A DNA stretch of 64,000 nucleotides from assembly GCA_022495995.1 (NCBI GenBank), contig JAFEMH010002557.1:1-64000 (forward strand), written 5' to 3'. Each line of letters starts with the position of its first letter. The first letter of the stretch is position 1. Origin of the DNA: Adenophora triphylla var. japonica. Lineage: Eukaryota; Streptophyta; Magnoliopsida; Asterales; Campanulaceae. Made by a program: the position numbers and the translations under genes. Of this stretch, positions 1,903-62,267 are shown one piece after another. The notes under the pieces are model-generated. The model saw only the letters and a program-made list of their open reading frames with translations, was not told the origin of the DNA and did no database searches.

Positions 1903-3369
1903 TGTAAGTACCCCAATCTGATCACTCCCTTTCAAACACACGGGAAACACCGTAGACTCATCCCACGCAGCCTCGTGGACCTCTCTCACTCAAAACCCTC
2001 TCAAAACCCTCTCAAACCCCCAAACAAAACAAGTGGAGGAGCCTTTCGGGATAAAAGGGACAAAAGGACCTTTGGGAATTTTCAGAAATCGTAGCAATTA
2101 AGGTCCGTACGGACCTCTTTGTTTCAATGATTACTAAATCCCCTTAAAGTCCACAATATTCCCTCAAATCCCGGAAGAAATGATGACTTCCTCACTGTGA
2201 GTTGGTCCGTGCGGACCTCTTTGCATGCAAGATGGTCCGTACGGACCTTATTGCATGGGGACATCATCATTCCAGAATATTCTCCATCATTGCAGATTCC
2301 CTCAAATCGAGGAAATCCAAAATTCTGGATAACCAAGAAGGTCCGTACGGACCTCTTTGCTCCGAAATTTTTACTATAAATAGAGGGCTCCCCCTCCTCA
2401 TTTTCACAGACCTCCCACTTCTCTCTTCCTCCCTAAGCCTTCTGGCTCCCCTTCTAAGACCTTTCGAGGCATTCCCGCCCCTTCGGATCCTTCCGAGGCC
2501 TTCCGAGCCCCTCGAGGTGCTCCGAAGCCTCTCCGAGCGCTCCCGAGACGCTCCCGCGCTGCCGAGGCACTCTCGAGGTACTACGAGGCCCTCGTGGTAC
2601 TCCGAGGCCTTGCCTGGTCTTTCCCACGGTGTCCCGGCTCTTTCCGAGTCAAACCGGCGATCCCAAACCTTGCCGAACCTCTGCCCGAATCCAACCAGCG
2701 ATTCCAACGCACGCCGAACCTCTGCCCGACTGATCCCGACGATCCCCACGCACGCCGAACCTGCCCAAACGCAGCCTACGCTTTCAACTCACGCCGAAAC
2801 TACTGTCCGCGGACCACCGGCATCCCCGAAGCAATCCGAACGCTTACTCCGACCTCAAACACTATTCCCTGCGGAAGATGCACACGAACCAACATTGGTA
2901 AGGCTTCCTTCCTATTCTATTTCAATACATTTCAATACAATGATAGACATCCGATACAAAGATGCATTTTTAAAAGCACACACACATCACACAACTTTTT
3001 AAAGGATATTCGGGGTATCCGGAAGCCCCGTTTTACGAGGCGACTCGGGTGAGCTCTAATATTCTAATATTCTCTTCTCGAGGAGTCATCTCGACCTCCG
3101 AACTCAAAATCTCATCACACAAAAATGCTTTAAAATTTATCTTTAAACCGATGCCCTTTTCAATGTTTTGGGCTTAATAAAACGGCGTGGCGACTCTACA
3201 AAATGCGAAAGCAAAACGGCGAGACACCTCCAACACGCAACGCTAAAACGGAATAAGCCAGATGCCGGGGCGCGATTGTGCTGCCTCTCGGATCCGGGCG
3301 ACTTCCCGAACAGCGACGAATGCGAGATGCCGGGGCCTCCGCGCGCGAGCCGGATCCCGGGTAATTTCA
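1903..3369 (+). repeat. 3' LTR of element E
   Basis: Starts TGTAAGTACC right after a purine-rich tract and ends TTTCA. It aligns along its length with the B LTRs (24,502-25,880 and 42,399-43,779) and the inverted A LTR (21,981-23,384). It is about 90 bp longer than the B LTRs because of an extra GC-rich partial duplication near 3,270-3,340. Landmarks: four 14-bp palindromes, TATA box at 2,375, CT-rich leader with many TTCCGAGG units (2,460-2,650), donor-like CATTGGTAAGG at 2,893, U5 hairpins at 3,027-3,086, and a PBS-like TGGCGACTCT at 3,188 inside the LTR. Confidence 0.9.
2102..2382 (+). promoter_or_regulatory. LTR promoter of E: four palindromes and a TATA box
   Basis: The perfect palindrome GGTCCGTACGGACC stands at 2,102, 2,234 and 2,340, with a one-base variant at 2,204; 2,204 and 2,234 are 30 bp apart. 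TATAAATA follows at 2,375-2,382, 21 bp after the last palindrome. Most palindromes are followed by CTCTTTG. Position before a good TATA box suggests binding sites for a dimeric factor; that is inference. Confidence 0.75.
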
Positions 3370-5422: not shown

Positions 5423-5472
5423 CTTGCTCCGGCAAGGCACTTTGGGTGAACGACGATCCGTTCTTCCCAAGG
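5423..5472 (+). ncRNA. U5 double hairpin of F
   Basis: Hairpin 1 pairs CTTGC (5,423-5,427) with GCAAG (5,432-5,436). Hairpin 2 pairs CTTTGGG (5,440-5,446) with CCCAAGG (5,466-5,472), with an inner GAAC/GTTC helix. The same two hairpins with different stem bases occur in the B, C and D LTRs. It would lie in U5 of the genomic RNA. Confidence 0.65.
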
Positions 5473-5623
5473 GGTAACTTAACCTCCGAACCCATAAAAC
5501 CTTTTTTTCAAAGTTTTGAGGTAATCAAAATGGCGTGGCGACTCCGTTTTTTCAAATTAAACCGGATGTCTTCAAACTCGCGTGAATTTCCAAAAATAAA
5601 CAAAAATTTGGGGCACACATTCA

Positions 5624-7218
5624 CAACGGTGGGGCTTATGGCTTTTGACGTGCTCTGGGAGATTCAGGTAGGCGTGGACTTTTCCGTCTCGATCCTGCTT
5701 TGAAGGGCAATCTTTGAGGTTCGGTGATGCTTAGTTGGCTATTGGACTTGCTGGGGTAGATGTGGCTGCCGGAGGGTCTTAGGCTATAACTGCTTGTTGG
5801 GAGGTAGCTGTCTAGTGTCTTATGCTACCATTGGTTCTGCTGGGAAGGTTGTAGCTGTCGGAGGATCTCATGCTACTGCTTGATGACCGTGGCTGCCGGA
5901 GGGACCTATACCACTTGTCGACGCTTGCTGGGTGGCCGTTCACGGGGCGGTCTTTGCAAAATAGTCTTTGGAATCGTCAAGGCTGGTGAGCTTTATTGCC
6001 TGGTTTCTGGGGCAGCTGGGGCTCTTTTCTTCGACAAACATTGCTTGGGGGCTGAGGCAACTGGGGCTCTTTTCGACGGTGCTGATGAGTCCGGGCCTTA
6101 CGAAGATAATAAAGGCGGGGTCTGCCACCTGCAGGGTTTGGAATCCCTGTCCAAGATTACGATCTGAGGGGCCGTCCTCACGATCACATCATGATCACCT
6201 GATTATTGTACTCTGCGGGGGAGACACAACACTCTAGATACTTAGCATTTTATTCGACTCTTTACTTATGCATTATTAATCTTTTGTTGCACAAGTCCAT
6301 CTCAGCTGGGGAGAATAGGAAGTAGGGATTTGGCACGACTTCACGAACAAATATGTCTGTATCGGTTGCTCTATGGGGGATCGTGTATGGGGCGAAAGTG
6401 TTTATAATGAGGAGGTCCCTCTCCCACGAGGTGGAAAAATGTATGAGTGACAGATGGTACGGTGTAGCTTAGGCAAGTTGGGGACGCTTCCGAGAGTTCA
6501 GATTGCAGCAGGTCCATTGGTGGTGAGGACAAAGTATATCGCGCGCCTAGGGCAGCAATCATAAGAGGGGGCAGAGAGCAATCCCGGCTTGGGGAAGCCC
6601 CAGTTGACAGTACAAAGCAAACCTAGAGGGAAATCTGGTAAGGAGAGCCGGAGGGGTATCTTAACCAAAGCCCCAGCTTGAGGACATTCCTTGCAGCTTC
6701 ATCGCAGGCAGAGTCATCTTGTGGCCGAAGAAGCAACCCATCATTTCAAACCGCAGTCAATCAGTCGCTGGACAAGACTCGGAAGTGTTTACGTGCAGGG
6801 GCATATCTTTCGAATGGCGGAAAATGAATCCCGAACTTCTGTATGACGCTCTCGCTTTTTGGTTTGACTCTTTTGGGAGAGTATAAGCATCACAAGGTGT
6901 GGAGAGGTGAATGGAAGCCCCTGCTGACCGAAACAGTGTTTAGCTCTATCTTCCTATGATGTAGAAATAGAAGACTTGTCGAGACACTTGAAAACTTGTC
7001 TTATTCGTGATGATCACAAACTGCTTAAAACCCTTTATTGATCTTCGGGTTATTCAACCAACAAAACTGACATGAACAAATATTTTTATCAATCCTGAGG
7101 AGAAAGCCCACTAATATCGAGATCGAATTCGGGAAGATGAACAGTGTATGGGCATGGTCCTTGAGGAGACCGAATTTTCTGAGATTTGTTTGTGATTTCG
7201 ACCGGACCAGTTATGGTT
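5624..7218 (-). mobile_element. Interior fragment of family D, duplicate copy 1
   Basis: Nearly identical to 45,177-46,776 in the same orientation; I see only scattered substitutions and a few short indels. In the longer copy this is the noncoding part of a - strand element 3' of its gag remnant. It includes several CTGGGGCT repeats also found in C at about 56,590-56,960. Small open frames (for example 5,880-6,167 on +) have no recognisable domain and I do not call them genes. It ends abruptly at 7,215-7,218 (GGTT), where element A sequence begins. Confidence 0.75.
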
Positions 7219-7239
7219 TAAGGCCTTCCGGGCCGGAGA

Positions 7240-7715
7240 TAGAGTGAGGACTTGAATCGTCTTCTGATTGCGGTTGGTGCCACGCTGGAGGACTTTGAAT
7301 CGTCATCTGGCGGCGGTTGGTGCCACGCTGGAGGACTTTGAATCGTCATCTGGCGGCGGTTGATGTAACGCGGGAGGACTTTGAATCGTCTTCTGGTTGC
7401 GGTTGGTGCCACGCTGGAGGACTTTGAATCGTCATCTGGCGGCGGTTGGTGCCACGCTGGAGGACTTTGAATCGTCTTCTGGCGGCGGTTGGTGCCACGC
7501 GGGAGGACTTTGAATCGTCTTCTAGCCGCAGTTGATGTTATGCGCGAGGACTTTGAATCGTCTTCTAGCCGCAGTTGATGTTATGCGCGAGGACTTTGAA
7601 TCGTCTTCTAGCCGCAGTTGATGTAATGCGCGAGGACTTTGAATCGTCTTCTAGCCGCAGTTTGATGTAATGCGCGAGGACTTTGAATCGTCTTCTAGCC
7701 GCAGTTGTGGAGGCG
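7240..7715 (-). repeat. 43-bp tandem array in A
   Basis: About eleven 43-bp units (+ strand: GGACTTTGAATCGTC, then GCGGTTGGTGCCACGC or CGCAGTTGATGT). Two unit types alternate early; the CCGCAGTTGATGTAATGCGC type dominates after 7,520. B keeps only two or three units, at 40,060-40,140. Confidence 0.8.
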
Positions 7716-7734: not shown

Positions 7735-8640
7735 GAGGCGTAGATGCCTTTGTGTTTTTGCATGTTGAGTAGAAGGTTGGACTTACGATGACTGCCGGTG
7801 CTTGCGTTGCCGTTGAAGTGGGCGAGGATGACGGCCGGTGATAGCTTCCCCATTTGGCATTTTGGAGGCGCTTCGTGCCTTGGGACTTGTACTCGGAGGT
7901 GTTGGCTCCTTCTTGTGCTTGTTTTGCCGTTGAGTGGGCAAGGATGATGGCCGGTGCTGGGGATATGCAGTCCTGTATGACTTCCCTTTCGACTTGTTGG
8001 GGGAGGAGCTCGGGCTTACTTTGATGGCCGGTGCTTGCGCTGCCGTTGAAGTGGGCGAAGTTCGGGCTTACATCTGACTGCCGGTGCTTGAATTGCTGGG
8101 GATGCATGACCTTGTAGGGGCCCTTTTCTGTTGGGAAGATGACTTCGGACCTCTTTTGAGGGCCAGTGGTTGAGTTGTCGTTGAGCGTTTGGAGGCGTCT
8201 TGTGCCTTGGGATTCGTGCTGGGAGGTGTTGGCTCCTTCTTGAATTGCCGTTGAGCGGGCGGTGGTTGAATTGCCGTTGGAGTGGGCGAGGACCGGTCTT
8301 ACGTTGATGGCCGGGGATTGAATTGCCGTTGAAGTGGGCGAGGACCGGTCTTACGTTGATGGCCGGTGGTTGAATTGCCGTTGAAGTGGGCGAGGACCGG
8401 TCTTACGCTGACGGCCGGGGATTGAATTGCCGTTGAAGTGGGCGAGGACCGGTCTTACGCTGATGGCCGGTGGTTGAATTGCCGTTGAAGTGGGCGAGGA
8501 CCGGTCTTACGCTGACGGCCGGTGGTTGAATTGCCGTTGAAGTGGGCGAGGACCGGTCTTACGCTGACGGCCGGTGGTTGAATTGCCGTTGAAGTGGGCG
8601 AGGACCGGTCTTACGCTGACGGCCGGTGGTTGAATTGAAG
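7735..8640 (-). repeat. Short-repeat region with a 50-60-bp array in A
   Basis: From 8,230 to 8,635 there are about seven units of GAATTGCCGTTGAAGTGGGC plus GAGGACCGGTCTTACG and a GGCCGGTGGTT segment. Before that the same words are scattered (7,780-8,230). It corresponds to 39,340-40,030 in B. No gene is supported. Confidence 0.75.
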
Positions 8641-8744
8641 GGTTAGGGACCATTCTGCACTTGGATTTGCTGGAAAAGGCCTTAGGACAGCCAGGGGCAA
8701 AGATTATAAGGGCAGGAAAGTAATTTGGCCACCCTTTGCAAAGA

Positions 8745-15720: not shown

Positions 15721-16800
15721 CTCTTGGTTTTGACCCCTTCGTGTGTGGGTCTTCCTTGTTCATGAAGGTGGTTTCCCGCTCTTGAGGTATTGGAAGATCC
15801 GGGTTATACCATGGCTCATCGACGGGCTTAGGTTCTCGGTTCGATCTCACAACAAGAGGCGTGAATTTCCTTTCGTCCGACTTTGAAGGGTTTGATTGCT
15901 TTTCCTTCGTGGATTTCCACAAGGGAAGCCAAGGTGGCTAAGGCATCCGCAAACCCGTTTCGGTCTCTTGGCAAGTAATGGAAGGTGACCTCTTCGAATT
16001 GTGTGATGAGGTCCTCCATGCAGCATGGTATTTTTGCAAGCCCTGGTCTATGGTTTTCCACTTGTTGGAGACTTGGTTGATGATCAAGGCCGAGTCCCCA
16101 TAAACTTCGAAGTTTCTCGGACATTCCTCTCGAGTGCGGCTTGTAGTCCAAGAAATAAGCAGCTTCATATTCGGCGGCATTGTTGGTTACCTCGAAATTG
16201 AGCTTTATAGCAATTGGGGTGTGCTCGTCCTGGGATCTACCAAGAGCATACCGATGCCGTTTCCCTTTTGTTGGCCGCTCCGTCGAAGAACAAGCCATCG
16301 ATTTTCGCCTTCGATTGCGAAGATTCCCTCGTCCGGAAATTGTGGTTCGGGCCTCGAGCCTCGCTTCGGTTGGGAAATCACCCGCTTGTTCACCCATGGC
16401 CCGTCCTTGATTGACTTTTGGTTTACGTACTTGATGTCAAATTCCGCTAGGAAGAAAGACCATTTGGCGAGCCTCATTGACAGAGATGGTTTGTCGAAGA
16501 GGTACTTGACTCGGGTCCATTTTGGAAACCAAGTGTACCGTGTGCGACCGCATGTAGTGCCGTAGTTTCCCGACAACCCATACCAGAGCCGCGCAGTTTT
16601 CTCGAGGGCCGAGTAATTGAGTTCGCCGCCTTGAAACTTTCGACCGACGAAGTAGATGGCGTTTCGACCCGTGACTCCTTCTTTTCTTGACAGAGCATGG
16701 CTCCAACCGCGTGTCTGGCCACGCTAGGTATAGCAACAAAGGGCTTTTCCTCGTGGGGAGGACAGAGAATCTGAGGACTCACAAGGTATGCTTTTATTTT
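15721..16800 (-). pseudogene. RNase H and second (archaeal-type) RNase H of A
   Basis: The first RNase H (about 16,400-16,790) shows VARHAVGAMLCQEKKESR and AKWSFFLAEFDIKYVNQKS. It is followed by the second RNase H (about 15,830-16,350) with KGNGIGMLLVD, IAIKLNFEVTNNAAEYEA and FADALATLAS. Two RNase H domains in a row before integrase mark the Tat lineage. The FFDGA catalytic start, readable in B, is frame-shifted here. Confidence 0.8.
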
Positions 16801-21980: not shown

Positions 21981-23384
21981 GAAATTACCCGATCCGAGCA
22001 GCCTCGCGCCCGCATCCGGCATCTTTCGCTTGCGGAGCGGGTGTCTCGCCGTTTTTGTTTTTGTAGAGTCGCCACGCCGTTTTTATTAAGCCCAAAACAT
22101 TGAAAAGGGCATCGCTTAAAGATAATTTTAAACTCGTTTTTTGTGTGATGAGATTTTTGAGTTCGGAGGTCGATGACTCCCGGAAGAGAATATTAGAATA
22201 TTAGAGCTCACCCGAGTAGCCTCGTAAACGAGTCTTTCTGATACCCCTAATATCCTTTAAATGTTGTGTGTGTGTGTGTGTGCTTTTAAAAATGCATGTC
22301 AGACGGATGTCTACATTGTATGCTATGTATGGAAATGTATTGAAATAGTATAGGAAGGAAGCCTTACCAATGTTGGTTCGTGTCCTGTCTTCCGCCGGGG
22401 AATGGTGTTTGAGGTCTGAGTAGCTCCTGCATGGATCGGGATTGCTTCGGGAGGGACCGGTTGTCCGCGGACGCAGTTTCGGCGTGAGTTGAGGTTGTAG
22501 GCCGCGTCGTCGGCAGCAGGTTCGCGTGCGTGGGGATCGTCGGGATCACTCGGCGCAGGTTCGGCGTGCGGCGTTGTGGTGGCAGGAGTCACTCGGCGTA
22601 GTTTCGGCGTGGTTTGGGATCGCCGGTTTGACTCGGAAAGAGCCGGACACCGTGGAAAGACCTGTGCAAGGCCTCTGAGTACCACGAGGGGCCTCGTAGT
22701 ACCTCGAGAGTGCCTCGGCAGCGCGGGAGCCGTCTCGAGCGCTGGGAGGCTTCTGAGCACCACAAGGGAGCTCAAGGCCTCAAGGATCCGAAAGGGGCCG
22801 GAGTGCCTCGAGAGGACTCTAGAGGGGAGCCGTAAGGCTAAGGGAGGAAGAGAGAAGAGGGAGGTGTGTGAAAATGAGGAGGGGGAGCCCTCTATTTATA
22901 GTAAAAATTTCGGAGCAAAGAGGTCCGTACGACCTTCTTGGTTATCCGTAATTTTGGATTTCCTCGATTTGAGGGAATCTCGCAATGATGGTGAATATTC
23001 TGAATGATGATGTCCCCTATGCAAGAAGGTCCGTGACGGACCATCAAGCATGCAAAGAGGTCCGTACGGACCAACTCGCAGGAAGTAATCATTTCTTCCG
23101 GATTTGAGGGAATATTGTGGACTTTAAGGGGATTTAGTAATCATTGAAACAAAGAGGTCCGTACGGACCTTAATTGCTTTTCTGATTTCCTCGAAAATTC
23201 CCAAAAGGTCCTTTTGTCCCTTTTATCCCAGAAGGCTCCTCCCTTGGTTTGGTCAGGGCTCGAGAGGGTTTCGAGAGGGTTTTTGAGAGGGTTTTGAGTG
23301 AGAGAGGTCTCCGAGACTACGTTGATGAGTCTGCGGTGTTTCCCGTGTGTTTGAAAGGGGGTGATCCAGATTGGGGTACTTACA
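21981..23384 (-). repeat. 5' LTR of element A
   Basis: Reverse complement of the E/B LTR; begins (-) TGTAAGTACC at 23,384 and ends near 21,981. Palindromes at 22,922 (one base lost), 23,029 (one base extra), 23,059 and 23,156. TATAAATA lies at about 22,893-22,900 on -, and CATTGGTAAGG at about 22,372. The U5 hairpin 1 pair is 22,221-22,232. The right flank is F's array (ATAGCGCCGTAAG), so A inserted in F copy 2's array. Confidence 0.85.
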
Positions 23385-24010
23385 ATAGCGCCGTAAGCTT
23401 TAGTCTCCGTTATTTCCGTCATAAAGAAATAACGTCATCAAGCTTTAGCTCCCTCTATCTCTCGTCAAAAGATAGCGTCGTCAGCTTTAGTCTCCGTTAT
23501 TTCCGTCATAAAGAAATAACGTCATCTAGCTTTAGCTCCCTCTATCTCTAAGAGATAGCGCCGTAAGCTTTAGTCTCTCGTTATTTCCGTCATAAAGAAA
23601 TAACGTCATCCAGCCTTTAGCTCCTCTATCTCTCGTCAAAAAGAGATAGCGCCGTAAGCTTTAGTCTCCGTTATTTCCGTCATAAAGAAATAACGTCATC
23701 TAGCTTTAGCTCCCTCTATCTCTGTCAAAAAGAGATAGCGCCGTAAGCTTTAGTCTCCGTTATTTCCGTCATAAAGAAATAACGTCATCTAGCTCCCTCT
23801 ATCTCTCGTCAAAAGAGATAGCGCCTGTAAGCTTTAGTCTCCGTTATTTCCGTCATAAAGAAATAACGTCATCTAGCTTTAGCTCCTCTATCTCTAAGAG
23901 ATAGCGCCGTAAGCTTTAGTCACCGTTATTTCCGTCATAAAGAAATAACGTCATCCAGCCTTTAGCTCCTCTATCTCTCGTCAAAAAGAGATAGTACCCT
24001 AAGCCTTAGC
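23385..24010 (+). repeat. Tandem array of F, copy 2
   Basis: About seven units of the 82-89-bp repeat with GTTATTTC/GAAATAAC and TATCTCT/AGAGATA inverted repeats. It carries many more one-base indels than copy 1 (for example CTCTCGTC for CTCTGTC and GCGCCTGTAAG for GCGCCGTAAG). Confidence 0.88.
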
Positions 24011-24501
24011 CTCCGTTAGAATGAAATAATGTCAGTGACAACCTCCATTAATTGTCAAAACTTCAAGGATCCTAGACATCGTTCTTAACCTATCTAGTGA
24101 TGCTCGAACTACGACCTGGCTTGGATTCCCCCGGGATACGTAGGTAGCCTCCCGTAGGTTCACCCAATTTGTCACATATGACGCCCCTTTCCCAAATGGA
24201 TTCCGAACTACGATTATGGCTTGATTCCTCCGGATACGTAGGTAGCCTTTCATAAAAGGTCCACCACTCGACCACTTCGTCACCGATCCATCTCGGCATT
24301 CGCCGATTGGATCCTTTTCTATCGACAACCCCACTCGCCTTGCAAGTGACGTTGCCGAGGGGCTTCGTAAGTACCCAAACCGGCTCATGCCTTCCTAAGC
24401 AAATTTCCCTAAGCAATTTCGGTAAGTTTCCAGAATTCCCGATCTTCCTAGTGTTCCGGAAATATTCCTAACAGCCTCCAAATCAAATATGGACCGAAAG
24501 G
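24011..24501 (+). mobile_element. 3'-terminal region and first 136 bp of the LTR of F, copy 2
   Basis: Hairpin motifs at 24,109-24,143 and 24,208-24,241, polypurine GCCGAGGGGCTTC, then the LTR start at 24,366 (first T missing). The LTR is interrupted at 24,501 by B and resumes at 43,785. The last five bases, AAAGG (24,497-24,501), are the target duplication. This 136-bp piece differs from copy 1 at 20 or more positions. Confidence 0.8.
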
Positions 24502-25880
24502 TGTAAGTACCCCAACTGGATCACTCCCTTTCAAACACCCGGAAACACCGCAGACTCATCCACGCAGCCTCGTAGACCTCTCCCACTCAAAACCCTCTCA
24601 AACCCCCAACCAAACCAAGGGAGGAGCCCTCTCGGGATAAAAAGGGACAAAGGACCTTTCGGGAATTTTCAGAAACCGAAAAGCAATATAGGTCCGTACG
24701 GACCTCTTTGTTTCCATAATTACCGAATCCCCTTAAAGTCCACAATATTCCTCAAATCCCTGAGAAATGATTACCCTAAATGCATACTTGGTCCGTACGG
24801 ACCTCTTTCGCATGTCAAGATGGTCCGCACGGACCTCTTTGCAAGGGGACATCATCATTTCCGTAATATTCACCATCATTGCATATTCCCTCAAATCGAG
24901 GAAAACCAAAATCCTCCGGATAACTAAGGAGGTCCGTACGGACCTCTTGCACCAAATCTCGAGACTATAAATAGAGGGCTCCCCCTCCTCATTTTCGACA
25001 CTTCCCACTTCTCTCTTCCTCCCTAAGCCTTCTCGGCTCCCCTCTAAGACCTTTCGAGGCATTCCCGGCCCCTTCGGATCCTTCCGAGGCCTTCCGAGCC
25101 CCCTCGAGGTGCTCCGAAGCCTCTCCGAGCGCTCCCGAGACGCTCCCGCGCTGCCCCGAGGCACTCTCGAGGTACTCCGAGGCCCCTCGTGGTACTCCGA
25201 GGCCTTGCTCGGTCTTTCCCACGGTGTCCCGGCTCTTTCCGAGTCAAACCGGCGATCCCAAACCTTGCCGAACTCTCTCGCCCGAATCCAACCAACGATT
25301 CCAACGCACGCCGAACCTCTCGCCCGAGTGATCCCGACGATCCCCACGCACGCCGAACCTCGCCCAAACGCAGCCTACAACCTCAACTCACGCCGAAACT
25401 CGTCCGCGGACAACCGGCATCCCCGAAGCAATCCGAACGCTACTCCGACCTCAAACACTATTCCCCTGCGGAAGACAGACACGAACCAACATTGGTAAGG
25501 CTTCCTTCCTATTCTATTTCAATACATTTCAATACAATGTAGACATCCGATACAAAGATGCATTTTTAAAAGCACACACACACACACAACTTTTTAAAGG
25601 ATATTAGGGGTATCCGAAAGACTCGTTTTTACGAGGCGACTCGTGAGCTCTAATATTCTAATATTCTCTTCCCGAGGAGTCATCTCGACCTCCGAACTCA
25701 AAATCTCATCACACAAAAACAGCTTTAAAATTTATCTTTAAACCGATGCCCTTTTTCAATGTTTTGGGCTTAATAAAACGGCGTGGCGACTCTACAAAAT
25801 GCGAAAGCAAAACGGCGAGACACCTCCAACGCGAAAGAATGCCGATGCCGGGCCGCGAGGCCTTCTGATCCGGTAATTTC
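24502..25880 (+). repeat. 5' LTR of element B
   Basis: TGTAAGTACC to GGTAATTTC; the final A is missing compared with the 3' LTR. Palindromes at 24,691, 24,790, 24,822 (one base changed) and 24,931; TATAAATA at 24,966-24,973; ATTGGTAAGG at about 25,491; PBS-like TGGCGACTCT inside at 25,794, 77 bp before the end. Confidence 0.92.
24691..24973 (+). promoter_or_regulatory. LTR promoter of B: four palindromes and TATA box
   Basis: GGTCCGTACGGACC at 24,691, 24,790 and 24,931, and GGTCCGCACGGACC at 24,822. The 24,790/24,822 pair is 32 bp apart. TATAAATA follows 22 bp after the last palindrome. The 3' LTR repeats the pattern at 42,591, 42,690, 42,722 and 42,837, with a damaged TATA (TATAAAATG). Confidence 0.75.
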
Positions 25881-29940: not shown

Positions 29941-31000
29941 AAGCATGTTTGTCAAACGAGAGAAAACCGGGCCCAAGCCGCCGAGGAGGTTTTAACCAAA
30001 GTGAATTTGGGAACCGCCAAGAGCCAAAAGAGACGCAAATCGGAAGTTTCTTCACCGGCACAGAGCAAGACGCATTGATCGCACCGCTCAAAGAGTTCGT
30101 GGACGTGTTCGCTTGGTCTTACCGAGACATGCCCGGATTAGATCCTAACATTGTAGAGCACCGGATTCCCTTAAATCCCGAGGCTAAGCCCATCAAGCAA
30201 AAGCTACGCCGAATCAAGCCGTAATGGTCTTTACAAGTCAAAGAGGAGATCGAAAAAATGCTCCGCGCTTCGGCTTCATCGTGGTGATCGAGTACCCCAC
30301 ATGGCTCTCCCAATATTGTCACTGGCCACCAAGGCCAATGGAAAAGTACGCCTGTTGCGTGACTTCCGAGATCTCAACAAAGCAAGTCCCAAGGACGATT
30401 TTCCACTACCCAATATCGACATGTTGGTAGACACTACACCAATTTCAAGTCAAGTCCTTCGTGGACGGTTTTGCCGGCTACAATCAAATCAAGATGGCCG
30501 AAGAAGACCAAGAAAAGACAAATTTTCACAACCCCTGGGAACCTACCGCTACACGCAATGCCGCTCGACTAAAGAACGCTCGGGGCTACCTACCAACGGC
30601 AAAGAACCGCCCTCTTCCACGATATGATCCACAAAGAGATCAAGTGTACGTCGATGACATGATCGTTCACTCAAAGGGATCGACGGACAACACCTCACGT
30701 ACACCGAGAAAATTCTTCAATCGCCTCCGAAAACACTCAATGAGGCTTAATCCCGCCAAATGCACATTCGGGGTTAGCCGAGGCAAGGTTTTGGGATACA
30801 TGGTCACCGAGAGAGGCATCGAGGTGGATCCTCAAAAGATCAAGGCTATCATCGAGATGAGACCACCGCAAACTCGCAGAGGTGAAAAGCTTCATGGGCC
30901 GCCCGCAATATATCGCCCGCTTCACAACCAACCGACCTCTATGTGCGAGCCAATCTTCAAGCCGATGAAGAAGAACGCCGACATCGAATGGAACTCGTAA
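29941..31000 (+). pseudogene. Reverse transcriptase of B, frameshifted
   Basis: FAWSYRDMPGLDPNIVEHRI at about 30,110-30,170 opens the RT region. KVRLLRDFRDLNKASPKDDF, FPLPNIDMLVD and DGFAGYNQIKMAEEDQEK follow; the catalytic YVDD is at 30,647-30,658 within YVDDMIVHSKG. Fingers and palm are in different frames. Confidence 0.85.
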
Positions 31001-40204: not shown

Positions 40205-42110
40205 CCAGACGCCACCACGTCTTATCACCGACCTATACGGTCACCCAGACGCCACCCAGACGCCACCACGCTCCTTATCACCGACCTATACGGGCCACCT
40301 GTGACGCCACCACGTCCTTATCACCGACCTATACGGCCACCAGGACGCCACCACGCCCTACCATCCGACCTATACGGCCACCCAGACGCCACCACGTTTA
40401 TCCGACCTATACGGCCACCCAGACGCCACCACGTCTCTACCATCCGACCTATACGGTCACCCGACGCCACCACGTCCTTATCACCGACCTATACGGCCAC
40501 CAGACGCCACCACGTCTACCATCCGACCTATACGGCCACCCAGACGCCACCACGTTCCTATCACCGACCTATACGGCCACCCAGACGCCACCACGCTCCT
40601 TATCCGACCTATACGTCACCCAGACGCCACCACGTCCTTATCATCCGACCTATACGGCCACCCAGACGCCACCACGTCCTTATCACCGACCTATACGGCC
40701 ACCAGACGCCACCACGTTCCTTACCATCCGACCTATACGGCCACCCAGACGCCACCACGTCTCTACCATCCGACCTATACGGCCACCCCGACGCCACCAC
40801 GTCCTTATCATCCGACCTATACGGCCACCCGTGACGCCACCACGCCCTACCATCCGACCTATACGGCCACCCCGACGCCACCACGTCCTTATCACCGACC
40901 TATACGGCCACCCAGACGCCACCACGTCCTTACCATCCGACCTATACGGCCACCCCTGTGACGCCACCACGTCCTTATCATCCGACCTATACGGTCACCC
41001 AGACGCCACCACGCCCTTATCATCCGACCTATACGGCCACCCTGACGCCACCACGTCCTTATCACCGACCTATACGGTCACCCAGACGCCACCACGCCCT
41101 TACCATCCGACCTATACGGCCACCCCGGACGCCACCACGTCCTTATCATTCGACCTATACGGTCACCCAGACGCCACCACACGTCCTTATCATCCGACCT
41201 ATACGGCCACCCAGACGCCACCACGCCCTTATCACCGACCTATACGGCTACCCAGACGCCACCACGTCCCTTATCCGACCTATACGGCCACCCAGACGCC
41301 ACCACGCTCCTACCATTCCGACCTATACGGCCACCCAGACGCCACCACGTCCCTTACCATCCGACCTATACGGCCACCCAGACGCCACCACGTCTCTACC
41401 ATCCGACCTATACGGCCACCCAGACGCCACCACGTCCTTATCACCGACCTATACGGCCACCCAGACGCCACCACGTCCTTACCATCCGACCTATACGGCC
41501 ACCCAGACGCCACCACGCCTACTATCACCGACCTATACGGCCACCTGTGACGCCACCACGTCCTTATCATCCGACCTATACGGCCACCGACGCCACCACG
41601 TCCTTATCACCGACCTATACGGTCACCAGACGCCACCACGTCCTTACCATCCGACCTATACGGTCACCCCGGACGCCACCACGTCCTTATCACCGACCTA
41701 TACGGTCACCCAGACGCCACCACGTCTCTACCATCCGACCTATACGGCCACCCGTGACGCCACCACGTCCTTATCACCGACCTATACGGTCACCCAGACG
41801 CCACCACGTCCTTACCATCTCGACCTATACGGCCACCCAGACGCCACCACGTCCTTACCATCCGACCTATACGGCCACCCAGACGCCACCACGTCCCTAC
41901 CATCCGACCTATACGGCCACTCCGACGCCACCACGTCCCCATCACCGACCCATACGGCCACCCGTGACGCCACCACGCCCTTATCACCGACCTATACGGT
42001 CACCCAGACGCCACCACGCCTTACCACCGACCTATACGGTCGCCACCCAGACGCCACCACGTCCTTATCACCGACCTATGCGGTCACCTAGACGCCACCA
42101 CGCTCCTCAC
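40205..42110 (+). repeat. 41-bp tandem array of B
   Basis: About 46 units of CGACCTATACGGCCACC, CAGACGCCACCACG and TCCTTATCA with one- to three-base length changes. Frames of up to 377 codons (40,958-42,091) are repeat products and are rejected as genes. It lies directly before the 3'-terminal hairpin and LTR. Confidence 0.92.
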
Positions 42111-42186
42111 CACCGACCTCGGCGGTCACACGACACTTCAGGCACCACCACGCCCGTATTCACGTAACACTCACCCCACACCCGAA

Positions 42187-42398: not shown

Positions 42399-43779
42399 CG
42401 TAAGTACCCCAACTGATCACTCCCTTTCAAACACCCGGAAACACCGCAGACTCATCCACGCAGCCTCGCAGACCTCTCCCACTCAAAACCCTCTCAAACC
42501 CCCAACCAAACCAAGGGAGGAGCCCTCCCGGGATAAAAAGGGACAAAGGACCTTTCTGGGAATTTTCGTGAAACCTGGAAAAGCAATATAGGTCCGTACG
42601 GACCTCTTTGTTTCCATAATTACCGAATCCCCTTAAAGTCCACAATATTCCCTCAAATCCGGAGAAATGATTACCCTAAATGCATACTTGGTCCGTACGG
42701 ACCTCTTTCGCATGTCAAGATGGTCCGTACGGACCTCTTGCAAGGGGACATCATCATTTCCGAATATTCACCATCATTGCATATTCCCTCAAATCGAGGA
42801 AAACCAAAATCCTGGATAACCAAGGAGGTCCGTACGGACCTCTTTGCACCAAATCTCGAGACTATAAAATGAGGGCTCCCCCTCCTCATTTTTGACACTT
42901 CCCACTTCTCTCTTCCTCCCTAAGCCTTCGGCTCCCCTTCTAAGACCTTTCGAGGCATTCCCGGCCCCTTCGGATCCTTCCGAGGCCTTCCGAGCCCCTC
43001 GAGGTGCTCCGGGCCTCTCCGAGCGCTCCCGAGACGCTCCCGCGCGCCCGAGGCACTCTCGAGGTACTCGAGGCCCCTCGTGGTACTCCGAGGCCTTGCC
43101 AGTCTTTCCCACGGTGTCCCGGCTCTTTCCGAGTCAAACCGGCGATCCCAAACCTTGCCGAACCTCGCCCGAATCCAACCAACGATTCCAACGCACGCCG
43201 AACCTCTGCCCGACTGATCGCGACGATCCCCACGCACGCCGAACCTTCGCCTAAACGCAGCCTTACGGTTTCAACTCACGCCGAAACTCGTCCGCGGACA
43301 ACCGGCATCACCGAAGCAATCCGGAACGCTACTCCGACCTCAAACACTATTCCCTGCGGAGAGGCTGGCATACACGAACCAACATTGGTAAGGCTTCCTT
43401 CCTATTCTATTTCAATACATTTCAATACAATGTAGACATCCGATACAGCATGCATTTTTAAAAGCACACACACACACACAACTTTTTAAAGGATATTAGG
43501 GGTATCCGAAAGACTCGTTTTTACGAGGCGACTCGGGTGAGCTCTAATATTCTAATATTCTCTTCCCGAGGAGTCATCTGACCTCCGAACTCAAAATCTC
43601 ATCACACAAAAACAGTTTAAAATTTATCTTTAAACTGATGCCCTTTTTCAATGTTTTGGGCTTAATAAAAACGGCGTGGCGACTCTACAAAATGCGAAAG
43701 CAAAACGGCGAGACACCTCCAACGCGAAAGAATGCCAGATGCCGGGGCCGCGAGGCCTTCTCGGATCCGGGTAATTTCA
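42399..43779 (+). repeat. 3' LTR of element B
   Basis: CGTAAGTACC (first T lost) to GGTAATTTCA at 43,779. Palindromes at 42,591, 42,690, 42,722 and 42,837; TATAAAAT at about 42,863; CATTGGTAAGG at about 43,383; U5 hairpin 1 CTCGT 43,514/ACGAG 43,523; hairpin 2 CTCGGG 43,532/CCCGAG 43,565. Followed by the AAAGG target duplication. Confidence 0.92.
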
Positions 43780-45176
43780 AAAGGGAAGCTTCCCAATTAA
43801 GAAACACGTTTTTCTTAATTGGGAGGAGAGTTCTAGAATGTGCCACCTTGCATGTTTCTAGAAATGCTGAGTCACAAGGGATAATGCCGCACGGCTGCAT
43901 TAGCTCGAGGTCTCTGGCCGCACGGCTTCATTAGCCTTATCCAGACTGTCTATAAATAGAGCCCTCCTCTACCCATTTTAATCATCCACAAAAGGCATCA
44001 CTCACTCATAATACGAAGGAGTCCTCCCAAGGAGCTACTGGAAGTCCAAGAAGGTGAAGAAGAAGGCCAAGAAGCTACCTCCCTCCTCCTTGAAGATCCC
44101 AAGATCAAGTCCTCCTCCTAGCTCCGTCCAAAGAATAAGAAGGAAGCCATTGGTAACCTCGCACGCCCTAACCTTGCATCTTAAATTTCTATATGTGATT
44201 CTACTTGCTCATTGCATTCATATATAGCTATTATCTTGCTTGGGACTTGGTAGTTTATCATAAAGATCATATCTTTATCCCCCTTTCCCCCTTTGCAAGC
44301 ATTAGGCATATTTAAATTCCAATTTCTTCATAAAAATGCATCATTTGCATAAAAATCATGTCTTTATGCATCCTTTGCAATAAAGATCATTTCTTTAAAA
44401 TTAAATGCATCCTTTGCAAATTAAAGATCATTTCTTTAAATCAAATGCATCCTTTGCAATCCAAAAATGTCATCTTTTCATTAAAAATGTCATTTTTACA
44501 TGCATTCCCCCATGTCCCCATTAGCAACCTCGGAACGGACCGGTGTAAAAGATCCTATCTTTACATCGTTCCTTCCATAAAAGGTTTCATAATTTCTTTA
44601 GAAAGGGACACCCTTGAACCCTATATCTCCGATTATCGCTTAAGATGAGTATGAAGCATCTATATGAGCTCGACCGTCTTAAAGCGTAGGATTGATGGGC
44701 TAAGGACCCTCCTTTTCTAAAGAACCTCATCTTTGACTATAAAGGGAGTCATTCTCTCGATCACGCAAGTCCCAAGGTCCAAAAATGCGATGATCACAAG
44801 TCCAAGATGAGGACGGGATCATAATCCCGAACACATAAAATCCAAGAAATCCCGAGCGACAACCAACAAATGGTTTGTACGTCCGAAAGACGACTTGGGA
44901 CATTCCCTCCTTTACTTCCAAACACATGCACACAAGAAAGTACGCAAGCAAGCACGATTAATGGGATCTTGGGAGACTTGCTCCGGCAAGGCACTTTGGG
45001 TGAACGACGATCCGTTCTTCCCAAGGGGTAACTTAACCTCCGAACCCATAAAACCTTTTTTTCAAAGTTTTGAGGTAATCAAAATGGCGTGGCGACTCCG
45101 TTTTTTCAAATTAAACCGGATGTCTTCAAACTCGCGTGAATTTCCAAAAATAAACAAAAATTTGGGGCACACATTC
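43780..45176 (+). repeat. Remainder of the F LTR, copy 2
   Basis: 43,780-43,784 is the AAAGG target duplication of B. From 43,785 the sequence follows copy 1 (4,228-5,623) almost without change: palindrome pair near 43,888 and 43,919, TATAAATA near 43,953, donor-like CCATTGGTAA near 44,149, U5 hairpins at 44,977-45,026. Confidence 0.85.
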
Positions 45177-47189
45177 ACAACGGTGGGGCTTATGGCTTTT
45201 GACGTGCTCTGGGAGATTCAGGTAGGCGTGGACTTTTCCGTCTCGATCCTGCTTTGAAGGGCAATCTTTGAGGTTCGGTGATGCTTAGTTGGCTATTGGA
45301 CTTGCTGGGGTAGATGTGGCTGCCGGAGGGTCTTAGGCTATAACTGCTTGTTGGGAGGTAACTGTCTAGGGTCTCATGCTACCATTGGTTCTGCTGGGGA
45401 TAGGTGTAGCTGTCGGAGGATCTCATGCTACTGCTTGATGACCGTGGCTGCCGGAGGGACCTATACCACTTGTCGACGCTTGCTGGGTGGTCATTCACGG
45501 GGCGGTCTTTGCAAAATAGTCTTTGGAATCGTCAAGGCTGGTGAGCTTTATTGCCTGGTTTCTGGGGCAGCTGGGGCTCTTTTCTTCGACAAACATTGCT
45601 TGGGGGCTGAGGCAACTGGGGCTCTTTTCGACGGTGCTGATGAGTCCGGGCCTTACGAAGATAATAAAGGCGGGGTCTGCCACCTGCAGGGTTTGGAATC
45701 CCTGTCCAAGATTACGATCTGAGGGGCCGTCCTCACGATCACATCATGATCACCTGATTATTGTACTCTGCGGGGGAGACACAACACTCTAGATACTTAG
45801 CATTTTATTCGACTCTTTACTTATGCATTATTAATCTTTTGTTGCACAAGTCCATCTCAGCTGGGGAGAATAGGAAGTAGGGATTTAGCACGACTTGACG
45901 AACAGATATGTCTGTATCGGTTGCTCTATGGGGGATCGTGTATGGGGCGAAAGTGTTTATAATGAGGAGGTCCCTCTCCCACGAGGTGGAAAAATGTATG
46001 AGTGACAGATGGTACGGTGTAGCTTAGGCAAGTTGGGGACGCTTCCGAGAGTTCAGATTGCAGCAGGTCCATTGGTGGTGAGGACAAAGTATATCGCGCG
46101 CCTAGGGCAGCAATCATAAGAGGGGGCAGAGAGCAATCCCGGCTTGGGGAAGCCCCAGTTGACAGTACAAAGCAAACCTAGAGGGAAATCTGGTAAGGAG
46201 AGCTTCTGAGGGAGTATCTTAACCAAAGCCCCACTTGAGGACATTCCTTGCAGCTTCATCGCAGGCAGAGTCATCTTGTGGCCGAAGAAGCAACCCATCA
46301 TTTCAAACCGCAGTCAATCAGTCGCTGGACAAGACTCGGAAGTGTTTACGTGCAGGGGCATATCTTTCGAATGGCGGAAAATGAATCCCGAACTTCTGTA
46401 TGACGCTCTCGCTTTTTGGTTTGACTCTTTTGGGAGAGTATAAGCATCACAAGGTGTGGAGAGGTGTATGGAAGCCCCTGCTGACCGAAACAGTGTTTAG
46501 CTCTATCTTCCTATGATGTAGAAATAGAAGACTTGTCGAGACACTTGAAAACTTGTCTTATTCGTGATGATCACAAAGCTGCTTAAAACCCTTTATTGAT
46601 CTTCGGGTTATTCAACCAACAAAACTGACATGAACAAATATTTTTATCAATCCTGAGGAGAAAGCCCACTAATATCGAGATCGAATTCGGGAAGATGAAC
46701 AGTGTATGGGCATGGTCCTTGAGGAGACCGAATTTTCTGAGATTTGTTTGTGATTTCGACCGGACCAGTTATGGTTGCCTACGTTCCCCTCCTTGGGAGG
46801 AGCTCAGGTCGCCGTAGTTCGGGCTTATCCCGAATGAAGAGAATGAACGTTAGAATTCAAGGATATGAGGACTTTTGAGGATTCTGAGAATTGAAAGAAC
46901 ATGTCCTCTTGGAGTGTCGATGGGGGACACGGATGTGAAGCCCCAGTGGGACGTTCACGGCAGGTGTTTGCGGAGGAGAAATGAAATATGCTCACATAAA
47001 ATGTCGAATGAACGAAGGGAATTTGCACGATCTTCGCTTGACGGTCCTTTGAGCCGGGATGGATTTGGCTCCGCTTTAAGCAATAATTTGTTTTAGATCT
47101 CGACGATATTGGAATGAAACTGCTATCCGGTAGGAACTGCGACTGGGTCTCGGGGTTTCGATCGGCCCTTGGGTGATTTAGGATATCAT

Positions 47190-49817: not shown

Positions 49818-49836
49818 TCCCCAGCAGAGTCGCCAC
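49818..49836 (-). other. Primer-binding site of D
   Basis: On -, TGGCGACTCTGCTGGGGAC follows the LTR end directly. A 3'-terminal tRNA complement starting TGG is expected here. Tat/Ogre elements are reported to use tRNA-Arg; I cannot confirm the tRNA without a search. Confidence 0.8.
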
Positions 49837-49918
49837 TGAATGAACGCTCGCCCGAAAAAAATAAAGAGGAAACATTGAAAACCTTTTGTAAGAGAAAATG
49901 GGTTCGGGGGTCAAGTTA

Positions 49919-49969
49919 CGTGTTGGGAAGAACCGAGAGTTCACCCAACACGCCTCGTCCGTAGACGAG
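49919..49969 (-). ncRNA. U5 double hairpin of D
   Basis: Hairpin 1: CTCGTC (49,954-49,959) with GACGAG (49,964-49,969). Hairpin 2: a perfect 9-bp stem CGTGTTGGG (49,919-49,927) with CCCAACACG (49,944-49,952), with an inner GAAC/GTTC helix. Read on -, order and loop residues match B, C and F. Confidence 0.7.
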
Positions 49970-52087: not shown

Positions 52088-54398
52088 TTGATCAGTTGGG
52101 AAGAGTCAAGCGCATCGTCAGCTTCACCATTTGTTTCGACTCCGGGTTTCAGAATGTCTGCATCAGCTGGTAACGATGGGGACAACATCACTCCGCCTCC
52201 CGGGACTCCCCAGACAGAACAACAGTGGAATCAGTTGGCTGAACAAATGAGACTGCGACAGGAAGCACCGCTGAATAGCCTTATGGAGGCTATTAGGAGC
52301 CATGGTTTGGCCGCCAGTCTCAATCCTGATGGCACCTTCACCGTGGAAGAAGAGGAAGACCCGAATCCCACTCTTGGTCGCCCTGACTACTCCAGGATGC
52401 CACCACCAACCTCCTACGATACTACTACCAGAGCCCATGCTCCTCGGTCTCTGGGTCAGCCAGCTCCTCAACCACAGACTACTGGATCCATGCAGCCTGA
52501 CGGGACAAGTCAGTTCCCAGTTTCTCAGTGGGGACAAAATCAGTACAGAATGTCTTCCCATGGTTGGGGGTACCTCGGAATGCCACAGCAAGTCGGGATC
52601 TCGCCTCAGTTTGGAACCGATCAGTCCGGACCTTCACAAAGAACAGCCTGTGGTACCACAAAGAATAGCTCGGAATGCCGCTACCACAGTTTGGTTTAGG
52701 GCAGCAGTCATGAGCCCCTCTTCTAAGTAATGTTGGTCCAGCTGCCACTAACACCTCTCTCGGCTTCCGAAACCCATTTCTCACTCGGGGTCCAATGGGC
52801 CGGCCAAGCCCCTATCCCGGTTTCATCGAATCACCAGACCGCGATACCCTCCCGGTTATACACCCTCGCCACGCTGGGCATGCGGTTCAACAACCAGGGC
52901 AAGAACCCGCATTTAAGCCTACTTATGAGTCTCACTCTGGAAACCCGAACTATCCGGCTACCTCAGGTCTGCCTCCACCTTCTCTGCCCCTTGGAAACCC
53001 ACAGCAAGCCGCTGGGTTCTATCCCTTTGCCCAGGCTCCTACCTACACTCCTCAGGGTAATTTGGGCCAAGGACAGGTTTTCACCTATGCCCCCGGACCG
53101 GCCATTCCTTCCACCAGTGCACCACCAACGGCTAGCCCTCTTCCTAGCTCAAATGTAGGCTTAGGTATTCCCGCTCCATCTTCGGATCCCCATTTGGCCT
53201 GGTTTATGGAGCAGCACAAGGAAATGAAAGCGCAGCTTGCTGAGTTGACTGTCAAAAAGGACACTGCTCTTCGGCCTACATACCCAACTCAATTGTACCC
53301 CTGCCTCACAAGTTCGTGATGCCCAATCTCGACTTGTTTGACGGGAGTGCGTGCCCTAAAACTCACTTGGACACCTATACTTTGGCAATAAAAGCTAAGG
53401 GATGCACAAACCAGCAGTTGGCCGACTACGTCAGCCTCTCTTTGAAGTCAGGAGCTTTGAAATGGTTCTTTCGATTGAAGCCTGAAGTTAGGGCTACTAG
53501 GGAACAGATTACCAGTACTTTCACAGATAAGTATAAAGCCAACATGGAATGGGAGACAAACAGAGTTGACCTGCAGACGACGATGCAGCGCCCTGATGAG
53601 AATATTGGGGATTTTTATAAAAGGTGGAACTTGAAGCTCAGTGAAATGGCCATCCCTCCCTCTGACGAGGAGCAGTTAGACATCTTCCAGTTATGCTTGA
53701 AGCCGCATTTAAGGGCCTCACTTAGCAATTTCCCCTATCCGGATCTGCGGGCAATGGTCAATTTCGGGGCTAAATTTTAGAGGGCTTACAATCAGCAGCA
53801 AGTTGTTGCATCTGCTTACAGATACCAGGCTTCTTCCACCTCCAACACGACTCCTGCCCAGCCCTATTCGGGACAGGACTGTAACAATGCCACTCCCTTT
53901 GTTCCCAAGAAACCTGATGCGTCCAGATCCTGATTCCAAGGCTTGGGAGACTTTGGAATGCCTTTGAGTGATATCTTCAGGGGTTTGGTAAAAGAAGGTT
54001 TGCTCCGGCCTTTAGATAATTATCAGCCTAGAAACCCCAATGCTCCTTTGGATACCTCCAAGCATTGTGCCTTTCATCAGTACCATGGGCACCTGACAGA
54101 TGATTGCGTCCCCTTGAAAAAGGCCATCCAAAGGTTGATTGATTAAGGGAGGTTAGAGATGCCTGAAGGGCCTAATACTATCAATAACCCGTTCCCTAGA
54201 AATAACAACATGAGTGTCAACATGGTCGAGTTTGGTGATTCAAGCCTTGTGAGCATAATGAAATTTGACTCGCCCCTGTGTGAGGTCGATGAACCAGTCA
54301 TCGCAGGCAATGAAAATAGTTGGATTGAGAAAGAGATTGCCAAAGAAATCCTGATGGAAAGATCTGCAATAGCTCCCATCTCCAACGTCGAAGAGTAG
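52088..54398 (+). pseudogene. gag of C with stops and frameshifts
   Basis: Structural capsid protein. N-terminal Pro/Gln-rich part (52,088-52,699, and 52,795-53,319 in another frame). Core domain at 53,316-53,780: LFDGSACPKTHLDTYTLAI, LKSGALKWFFRLKPE, FTDKYKANMEWE, RPDENIGDFYKRWNLK. C-terminal SKHCAFHQYHGHLTDDC (about 54,060-54,110) is the Cys/His block of Tat gags. From 53,316 one frame continues to 54,398 but is cut by a TAG (53,778-53,780), a TGA (about 53,931) and a TAA (54,144-54,146). Two frameshifts lie upstream. It ends SNVEE-stop with no protease after it. Confidence 0.85.
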
Positions 54399-59020: not shown

Positions 59021-59109
59021 GTAACCTACCATAGGTCCAGCCACTTGACCAACACGGTCACCCTTTTCCCCGACAGTTCTCGTAAGATCGAATCTTCCTC
59101 AGCAAGAAG

Positions 59110-59935
59110 ACCTTCAAATAGTCTCCCTCAGGTACAAAACCTCGACTTAGGATCATACTCCTGAACTAAGTCCCCATTCAGGTTCATACTCCTGAACCAG
59201 GTCCCCACTTAGGTTCATACTCCTGAACTAAGTCCCCATTTAGGTTCATAATCCTGAACTAAGTCCCTATTTAGGTTCATACTCCTGAACCAAACCTCGA
59301 CTTAGGATCATACTCCTGAACTAAGTCCCCATTTAGGTTCATACTCCTGAACCAAACCTCAACTTAGGTTCATACTCCTGAACTAAGTCCCCATTTAGGT
59401 TCATACTCCTGAACTAAGTTCCCATTTAGGTTCATACTCCTGAACCAAACCTCAACTTAGGTTCATACTCCTGAACTAAGTCCCCATTTAGGTTCATACT
59501 CCTGAACTAAGTCCCTATTTAGGTTCATACTCCTGAACCAAACCTCGACTTAGGATCATACTCCTGAACTAAGTCCCCATTTAGGTTCATACTCCTGAAC
59601 CAAACCTCGACTTAGGTTCATACTCCTGAACTAAGTCCCCATTTAGGTTCATACTCCTGAACCAAACCTCGACTTAGGTTCATACTCCTGAACTAAGTCC
59701 CCATTTAGGTTCATACTCCTGAACCAAACCTCGACTTAGGATCATACTCCTGAACTAAGTCCCCATTTAGGTTCATACTCCTGAACTAAACCTCAACTTA
59801 GGTTCATACTCCTGAACTAAGCCCCCATTTAGGTTCATACTCCTAAAATAAATCTCAACTTAGGTTCATACTCCTGAACTAAGTCCCCATTTAGGTTCGT
59901 ACTCCTGAACTAAACCTCAACTTAGGTTCGTCCCT
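59110..59935 (+). repeat. 30-31-bp tandem array of C
   Basis: About 27 units of TTAGGTTCATACTCCTGAAC with alternating tails TAAGTCCCCATT and CAAACCTCGAC, giving a 60-bp dimer. Each unit holds the inverted repeat AGGTTCA/TGAACT, so the RNA could form a row of hairpins. Confidence 0.92.
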
Positions 59936-60129
59936 GGCAAAAGCTAACGGAATTCTGTTTCTTTCCTCGTTTCCATCCCCAGCAGCTTCCGAGCTACGTA
60001 TAGGCTTGATTCCCACTCGGGATACGTAGGTAGCCTACCATAGGTCCAGCCACTTGACCAATACGGTCATCCTTTTCCTCGACAACAAACGTAAGACCGA
60101 TCCCTCCAAGTGAAGTCCACCCAGGGACC

Positions 60130-62097: not shown

Positions 62098-62146
62098 CTC
62101 GTTTTACGAGGCATTCCGGGTGAACCCTAACGTTCTTCCCGGAATG
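62098..62146 (+). ncRNA. U5 double hairpin of C
   Basis: Hairpin 1: CTCGT (62,098-62,102) with ACGAG (62,106-62,110). Hairpin 2: perfect 9-bp CATTCCGGG (62,112-62,120) with CCCGGAATG (62,138-62,146), with an inner GAAC/GTTC helix. Confidence 0.7.
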
Positions 62147-62267
62147 TAACGTGACCTCCGAACTCAAATCTCTCAATTTTGGGCATTTTTCAAAGTTTTG
62201 GCCCTTAAACTAAAAACGGCGTGGCGACTCCGTTTGATTTTTCAAAAAAAATTGAAAATCGGGTACA

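Follow-up and report, generated by a model that had tools for sequence, protein, structure and literature searches.

Two adjoining hairpins with compensatory stem changes in the LTRs of four retrotransposon families: a candidate leader RNA domain

The window analysed here (the whole stretch of DNA, 64,000 nucleotides) contains LTRs of several families, and the question that they raise is whether four of these families keep the same two hairpins at the same place while the letters of the stems change, and what such a structure could serve for. A reading of the letters alone had predicted this arrangement and had ascribed it to selection on RNA structure. Reading all copies on both strands rendered a block of about 75 nt common to four LTR families (C; D; F; and A/B/E), with eight copies within the window. 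Two adjoining hairpins are followed by a fixed tail ending in CGAAC(C/T)CA and then, in all four families, by the primer-site sequence TGGCGACTC, which in D opens the primer site. Located by the base that opens GACTCG, or by the corresponding base, the copies are at 62096 (C, plus strand), 49971 (D, minus), 5421 and 44975 (F copies 1 and 2, F1 and F2, plus), 43512 and 25620 (3' and 5' LTRs of the B element, B3 and B5, plus), 3025 (E, plus) and 22234 (A, minus). The presence of the two-hairpin block at a matching place in the LTRs of four families was confirmed in these eight copies, and the coordinates and stems given for hairpin 1 in C, D, F, B and A by the original prediction were all recovered upon re-reading. 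The features are the following:

62098..62110, plus strand: hairpin 1 of family C, stem CTCGT/ACGAG
62111..62147, plus strand: hairpin 2 of family C, outer stem GCATTCCGGG/CCCGGAATGT, U/UU internal loop, inner stem GAAC/GUUC
62159..62166, plus strand: invariant CGAAC(C/T)CA block of family C (CGAACTCA)
62222..62230, plus strand: primer-site-like TGGCGACTC of family C
49954..49969, minus strand: hairpin 1 of family D, stem CTCGTC/GACGAG, cUACGg loop
49918..49953, minus strand: hairpin 2 of family D
49899..49906, minus strand: CGAACCCA block of family D
49818..49835, minus strand: primer binding site of family D, 17 of 18 nt complementary to the 3' end of the plant tRNA-Arg(ACG) taken as reference
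5423..5436, plus strand: hairpin 1 of family F, copy 1, stem CTTGC/GCAAG, cUCCGg loop
5437..5475, plus strand: hairpin 2 of family F, copy 1
5487..5494, plus strand: CGAACCCA block of family F, copy 1
44977..45029, plus strand: hairpins 1 and 2 of family F, copy 2 (identical to copy 1 across the model)
43514..43527, plus strand: hairpin 1 of family B, 3' LTR (B3), stem CTCGT/ACGAG
43528..43574, plus strand: hairpin 2 of family B, 3' LTR, CTCGGG/CCCGAG, inner stem GAG/CTC
25622..25680, plus strand: hairpins 1 and 2 of family B, 5' LTR (B5), two G of GGG missing
3027..3086, plus strand: hairpins 1 and 2 of family E, hairpin 1 damaged
22176..22232, minus strand: hairpins 1 and 2 of family A (A5), 3' arm of hairpin 2 damaged
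22221..22232, minus strand: hairpin 1 of family A, stem CTCGT/ACGAG

Hairpin 2 consists of an outer stem of the form GC-N5-GGG/CCC-N5'-GT and an inner stem, GAAC/GUUC or, in A/B/E, GAG/CUC, with an unequal internal loop in which one U faces UU. Its fixed feature, GGG-U-GA(A/G) facing (U/C)UC-UU-CCC, is intact in C, D, F and B3. The five variable positions read ATTCC/GGAAT in C, GTGTT/AACAC in D, ACTTT/AAGGG in F and GACTC/GAGGA in B3, and form 5, 5, 4 and 3 pairs, respectively. Hairpin 1 is capped by cUNCGg tetraloops in D and F, and the apical loops are not conserved across families. A/B/E match the outer stem of hairpin 2 in part only, two positions being unpaired, and some pairs have been lost in A5 and E. 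The stems predicted for hairpin 2 stand in C, D and F, and the outer stem of B carries two A/G mismatches. In the same way, the segments GGG-TGA and TTCTT-CCC, which had been described as fixed, are so in C, D and F, but CTCTT replaces TTCTT in A/B/E, a change compensated by GAG/CTC in place of GAA/TTC, and B5 lacks two G of GGG. The predicted inner GAAC/GTTC helix was found together with its GAG/CTC variant in A/B/E (with pairs lost in A5 and E), and the block expected after the hairpins corresponds to the fixed tail, which ends in CGAAC(C/T)CA in all four families.

That the stems differ between families yet stay paired goes beyond what chance would give. RNAalifold, run unprompted on C, D and F, rendered the same 20 pairs as the fold proposed originally; 7 of them are changed on both sides, a number reached in none of 500 shuffles, and sliding the 3' arms gave at most 2 double changes versus the 7 real ones. 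When all eight copies (seven distinct rows) were placed in an alignment fitted to the model, 8 of the 20 pairs were changed on both sides (1 of 500 shuffles) and 87.4% of the cells paired (0 of 500 shuffles), figures to be read knowing that this alignment favours the structure. The count of further pair types was unexceptional, since it was reached in 29 (C/D/F) and 49 (eight copies) of 500 shuffles. In the MAFFT alignment (A1) the 3' arm of A/B/E lies one column out of register, and the pair counts come instead from A2, which comprises three families, and from A4, the alignment fitted to the model. Column shuffles preserving the gap pattern and the number of letters per column gave z values of -8.2 for four families, in an alignment placed by hand with the structure in mind, and -8.7 for three families; the energy was reached in 0 of 2000 shuffles in each case, and the double changes were matched in 0 and 2 of 2000, respectively. 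When the five variable pairs of hairpin 2 are taken from C, D, F and B3, the true assignment of arms tops 24 swaps with 17 of 20 positions paired (16 for the next), the true register is the best of 13 arm slides (14 for the next), and 17 of 20 was reached in 5 of 200000 letter shuffles. Arm swaps, shuffles, RNAalifold and column shuffles all support the selection on RNA structure that had been proposed, and in the four independent families available, all from one window, the sequences support a model in which the pairing of the stems would be maintained by selection while their letters change, with the internal loop and the tail fixed.

The antisense consensus fold is weaker (-20.3 vs -24.9 kcal/mol for the sense strand) yet has as many double changes (7), so that the strand call rests on energy and on G-U pairs; the sense fold is the better one in all eight copies, by 0.3 to 6.3 kcal/mol. 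A covariance model built from C, D and F recovered the other five copies in the window (F2, B3, E, B5 and A5), including the clade A/B/E, which it had not seen, with E-values of 3e-18 for B3, 8e-11 for E, 9e-11 for B5 and 3e-9 for A5; the sole other match in the window up to an E-value of 10 was the antisense of C's own hairpin 2 (E 0.11). Single-sequence z values were -3.7 for C, -4.5 for D and -3.1 for F, and unremarkable for B3 (-1.0), A5 (-1.5) and E (-0.8). Hairpin 1 is part of the minimum-energy fold in three of six longer stretches (D, F and B3), C and A5 pairing otherwise and E forming a variant, and in five of eight shorter ones (C, D, F1, F2 and B3), where E again forms a variant and A5 and B5 pair otherwise. 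The best folds of C, D, F, B3 and E contain hairpin 2; that of A5 has it in altered form, and that of B5 lacks it. The damaged copies A5, B5 and E fit the two-hairpin fold less well.

The B element, which has paired LTRs with TG...CA ends and, as seen for B only, a 5-bp AAAGG duplication, is an LTR retrotransposon, and its hairpins lie inside the LTR, with 205 nt separating them from the end of the 3' copy:

24502..25880, plus strand: 5' LTR of the B element, starting with TGTAAGTACC and preceded by AAAGG
42400..43779, plus strand: 3' LTR of the B element, ending in TTTCA and followed by AAAGG

TG opens the 5' LTR and CA closes the 3' LTR; the 3' LTR lacks its first T, and the 5' LTR has a changed final base. 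An RVT_1 domain was found in this element at 30431-30997, with relatives of 39-52% identity among the 120 of 1736 matches listed, the three with a named organism being plants. An additional archaeal-type RNase H is expected of the Tat lineage, and an RVT_3-type RNase H match with a score equal to the Pfam cut-off is present in the A element (15831-16436); there is also a gag match slightly under the cut-off at 53244-53777. The elements are probably Ty3/gypsy of the Tat lineage, as judged from sequence.

Several other traits of these elements were observed. The stretch bearing the F LTR is present twice (3369-4230 vs 23648-24501, 95%; 4226-7218 vs 43780-46776, 99%), one copy being interrupted by the B element with AAAGG on each side and the other representing the B-free site; a related LTR lies near the left edge of both stretches, in opposite orientations. 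Tandem arrays at 59034-60046, 40472-42131, 7166-7705 and 8205-8689 have units of 31, about 42, 43 and 52 bp, respectively, the 31-bp array being upstream of the C LTR and the ~42-bp array upstream of the B 3' LTR. The A/B/E, C and D LTRs each have a repeated palindrome or near-palindrome of their own with a CG-rich core, and these may be family-specific factor sites or methylation targets:

GGTCCGTACGGACC, 18 in the window: 12 in the E/A/B LTRs (2102, 2234, 2340, 23059, 23156, 24691, 24790, 24931, 42591, 42690, 42722 and 42827) and 6 elsewhere
TCCGCGCGGA, 4 in the window, C LTR: 60796, 60829, 61892 and 61923
GTGTCGCGTGACAC, 4 in the window, D LTR: 50180, 50213, 50395 and 50428

Where the block lies within the LTR bears on what it could do. 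A TATA box is found upstream of hairpin 1 at -1233 in C, -1025 in F1 and F2, -651 in E, -667 in A5 and -655 in B5, and B3 has one, CTATAAAATG, identified by eye, so that TATA boxes lie 0.65-1.2 kb upstream of the hairpins in seven of the eight copies; D has only a weak candidate, TTTAAATACC, seen by eye near -1550. As seven of the eight copies thus have a TATA box 5' of the hairpins, transcription of the block is probable and, to judge from these positions, it probably lies well inside the leader. In A5, B5, B3 and E, hairpin 1 is followed by AATAAA at 147-152 nt, and in F at +174; none was found within 330 nt downstream of hairpin 1 in C or D, and in D one lies, by eye, about 93 nt upstream. 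The predicted location is, accordingly, probably right in placing the hairpins in the transcribed part of the LTR; with AATAAA on either side of hairpin 1, they may belong to U5 or to R, a label that hinges on the poly(A) site. Local alignment of the region from -1000 to +700 showed that the C, D, F and B3 LTRs are alike only from about -57 to +173 of hairpin 1, CA repeats contributing to the upstream part of the likeness in C-B and D-B. Beyond this segment, LTR starts are also common to families, with TGTAAGTACCCCAA in C, E, A5 and B5 and, by eye, a near copy in D. A 99% match between F (-1000 to -763) and B3 (+463 to +700) was discarded as not inter-family, because there F is compared with itself, the LTR of F2 being the one that has B within it. 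A TAR-like transcription start beside hairpin 1, suggested by the likeness starting near this hairpin and by TTTAAA at -27 of it in A/B/E, was dropped in view of the strong TATA boxes 0.65-1.2 kb upstream.

As reference for the primer site we used a plant tRNA-Arg(ACG) sequence, which ARAGORN reads as tRNA-Arg(acg). Complementarity to it amounts to 17 of 18 nt in D, 12 of 18 in B5 and 14 of 18 in A5, the last two having TGGCGACTC after the LTR. In A/B/E, TGGCGACTC also occurs within the LTR, some 100 nt short of its end, and it recurs past the LTR end in A5 and B5 (B5, 25785 and 25883; A5, 22073 and 21976, minus strand; B3, 43678), as if the A/B/E LTR had been extended beyond an earlier primer site, which D still has at the old place. 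Besides, the 5' arm of hairpin 2 in B and E holds GGCGACTC, which is 8 nt of the primer site (43527-43534, 3039-3046 and 25635-25642); because of this identity, the end of the primer tRNA could pair there too.

We propose that the block is a cis-acting leader RNA domain for packaging, for the start of reverse transcription, or for both, an explanation to which we give even chances. It would be a structured RNA domain of the Ty3/gypsy leader, with the promoter-proximal part of the LTR on one side and the primer binding site on the other. Paired change in a stem around a fixed internal loop is a usual mark of a protein-binding RNA element. Since here the stems vary in pairs and the internal loop is kept, the stems may serve to display the loop to a protein. 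Pairing, conservation and position within the LTR are what the sequences show; the partner and the step served are inferred: the displayed loop would be bound most likely by the Gag of the element (packaging) or by the reverse transcriptase complex, and the domain would act in cis to mark the genomic RNA for packaging and the start of reverse transcription; its tail, CGAAC(C/T)CA, may touch the T arm of tRNA-Arg, the primer. For a retroelement leader structure that precedes the primer site, packaging or reverse-transcription start is the likeliest service. Dimerisation by loop-loop contact, another of the roles put forward originally, is not favoured, and a kissing loop was set aside, because the apical loops vary and, in two cases, namely D and F, a cUNCGg tetraloop closes hairpin 1. 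A more elaborate version, in which plant elements of this lineage would have in common a leader module made of the hairpins, the fixed U/UU loop and a tail pairing with the T arm of tRNA-Arg, and in which this module would mark the genomic RNA for packaging and reverse transcription from inside a leader intron, the spliced and translated RNA being without it, seems improbable.

Other services of the same block can be considered. The tail could be the active part: it would be a primer activation signal that base-pairs with the tRNA-Arg T arm, and the hairpins would do no more than position it for reverse transcription to start. It is present in the seven copies tested (F2 has the same sequence as F1) and can form eight pairs with positions 50-57 of the reference tRNA-Arg(ACG), of which C/A/B/E have one as G-U, but the 8-nt run gave, against shuffles, P values of 0.11 (D) and 0.045 (F) with Watson-Crick pairs and of 0.84 (F) with G-U, and most tRNAs share GGTTC in the T arm, which counts against a specific pairing. 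In C, A, B and E the tail is not the longest tRNA-complementary match. Pairing of the tail with the primer tRNA is a weak lead on these sequences, and we regard this explanation as unlikely. By eye, the inner GUUC of hairpin 2 could offer the CCGAAC of the tail another partner in C, D and F, a pairing that A/B/E do not allow. The hairpins might also work in the 3' LTR and control the use of the poly(A) site, as R-region hairpins of some retroviruses do. The AATAAA signals located 147-152 nt past hairpin 1 in A5, B5, B3 and E could put the block in R there; however, with none in the 330 nt downstream in C and D, one at +174 in F and one upstream in D, the signal moves among families, which would leave the fixed internal loop unexplained, and such a role is rather unlikely.

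A structure serving leader splicing or translation, with the block being intronic or a splicing regulator, appears quite unlikely. A donor-like CATTGGTAA precedes the block in C (-1038 from hairpin 1), F (-823) and B (-126 in B5) and is the sole 9-mer common to three of the four leaders, but 485 of 2000 simulated sets also share a 9-mer in three of four, so that it was rejected as a leader intron donor for not being significant; moreover, D lacks it and the distance from GGTAA to hairpin 1 ranges from 126 to 1038 nt. Finally, the block might be an inherited DNA element, a promoter or a binding site, whose arms pair by chance. The four blocks are clearly homologous and the single-sequence z values of A/B/E are weak, in agreement with this, but the arms differ among families and yet pair, and strong TATA boxes are found far upstream in six matched copies, which makes a DNA element very improbable.

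Counterparts of the block were sought among described structures and other sequences. Rfam 15 at gathering cut-offs gave no match in the window, and around the C and D blocks only sub-threshold ones (E 1.8 or worse). Pattern scans rendered 62, 0, 14, 15 and 0 stretches in viral contigs and at least 119 in genome contigs. None of 181 sites of the first pattern combined GGCGACTC within 400 nt, a nearby CCGAAC and paired arms (one had GGCGACTC, with unpaired arms), and none of 30 sites of later patterns had GGCGACTC within 400 nt; these sites outside the window were judged to be chance matches. Querying the viral contigs with a reverse transcriptase gave no relative. Judged by title and opening of the abstract, none of the papers listed in a literature search, mostly from freely accessible journals, dealt with a conserved leader hairpin of plant Ty3/gypsy LTRs, and no such domain appears in passages of PMC3601003, PMC3485330, PMC11963269, PMC12786077 and PMC3735527. 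As far as searched, this two-hairpin domain is new.

Among plant elements, BARE (PMC3735527) is described in the relevant passages as an LTR element with separate RNA pools for translation and replication; it differs in being Ty1/copia with a small gag intron, and the terms 'stem-loop' and 'packaging signal' are absent from that text. Passages on Retrosat2 of rice (PMC3485330) report a TATA box early in the LTR and long R and U5 regions, like the present LTRs; in them LTR RNA structure is not mentioned and 'secondary structure' refers to proteins. In the LTR models of Benachenhou et al. 2013 (PMC3601003), a passage ties residual conservation in longer R regions to stem-loops; it names retroviral groups, and 'Tat lineage', 'Retand' and 'Athila' are absent from the text. 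A 2025 review (PMC12786077), in the passages concerned, names no cis RNA signals and presumes the plant mechanism from the yeast Ty1 model. The cis RNA signals of plant LTR retrotransposons for packaging and for the start of reverse transcription seem, in short, poorly known. A covarying domain of about 75 nt represents a precise target for probing and mutation, its covariance model could reveal LTRs that a sequence search may miss, and it lets one ask which non-autonomous elements use the packaging system of autonomous ones.

As a kind, RNA structure in the leader of retroelements is well known from retroviruses and yeast elements. Retroviral leaders include the TAR and poly(A) hairpins and the U5-PBS of HIV-1, and the U5-IR and the U5-T-arm contact of RSV. 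The present block resembles them in having stable tandem hairpins and a candidate contact with the primer tRNA upstream of the primer site; unlike TAR and the poly(A) hairpin, the plant hairpins would lie 0.65-1.2 kb past the TATA box and not at the 5' end of the RNA. In Ty1 and Ty3, leader RNA structure is needed for packaging and for primer use, with extended tRNA contacts, and the Ty1 leader has a pseudoknot and uses initiator tRNA-Met as primer. The block described here is likewise a structure in the putative leader of an LTR retrotransposon, made up in this case of two plain hairpins and accompanied by a tRNA-Arg-type primer site.
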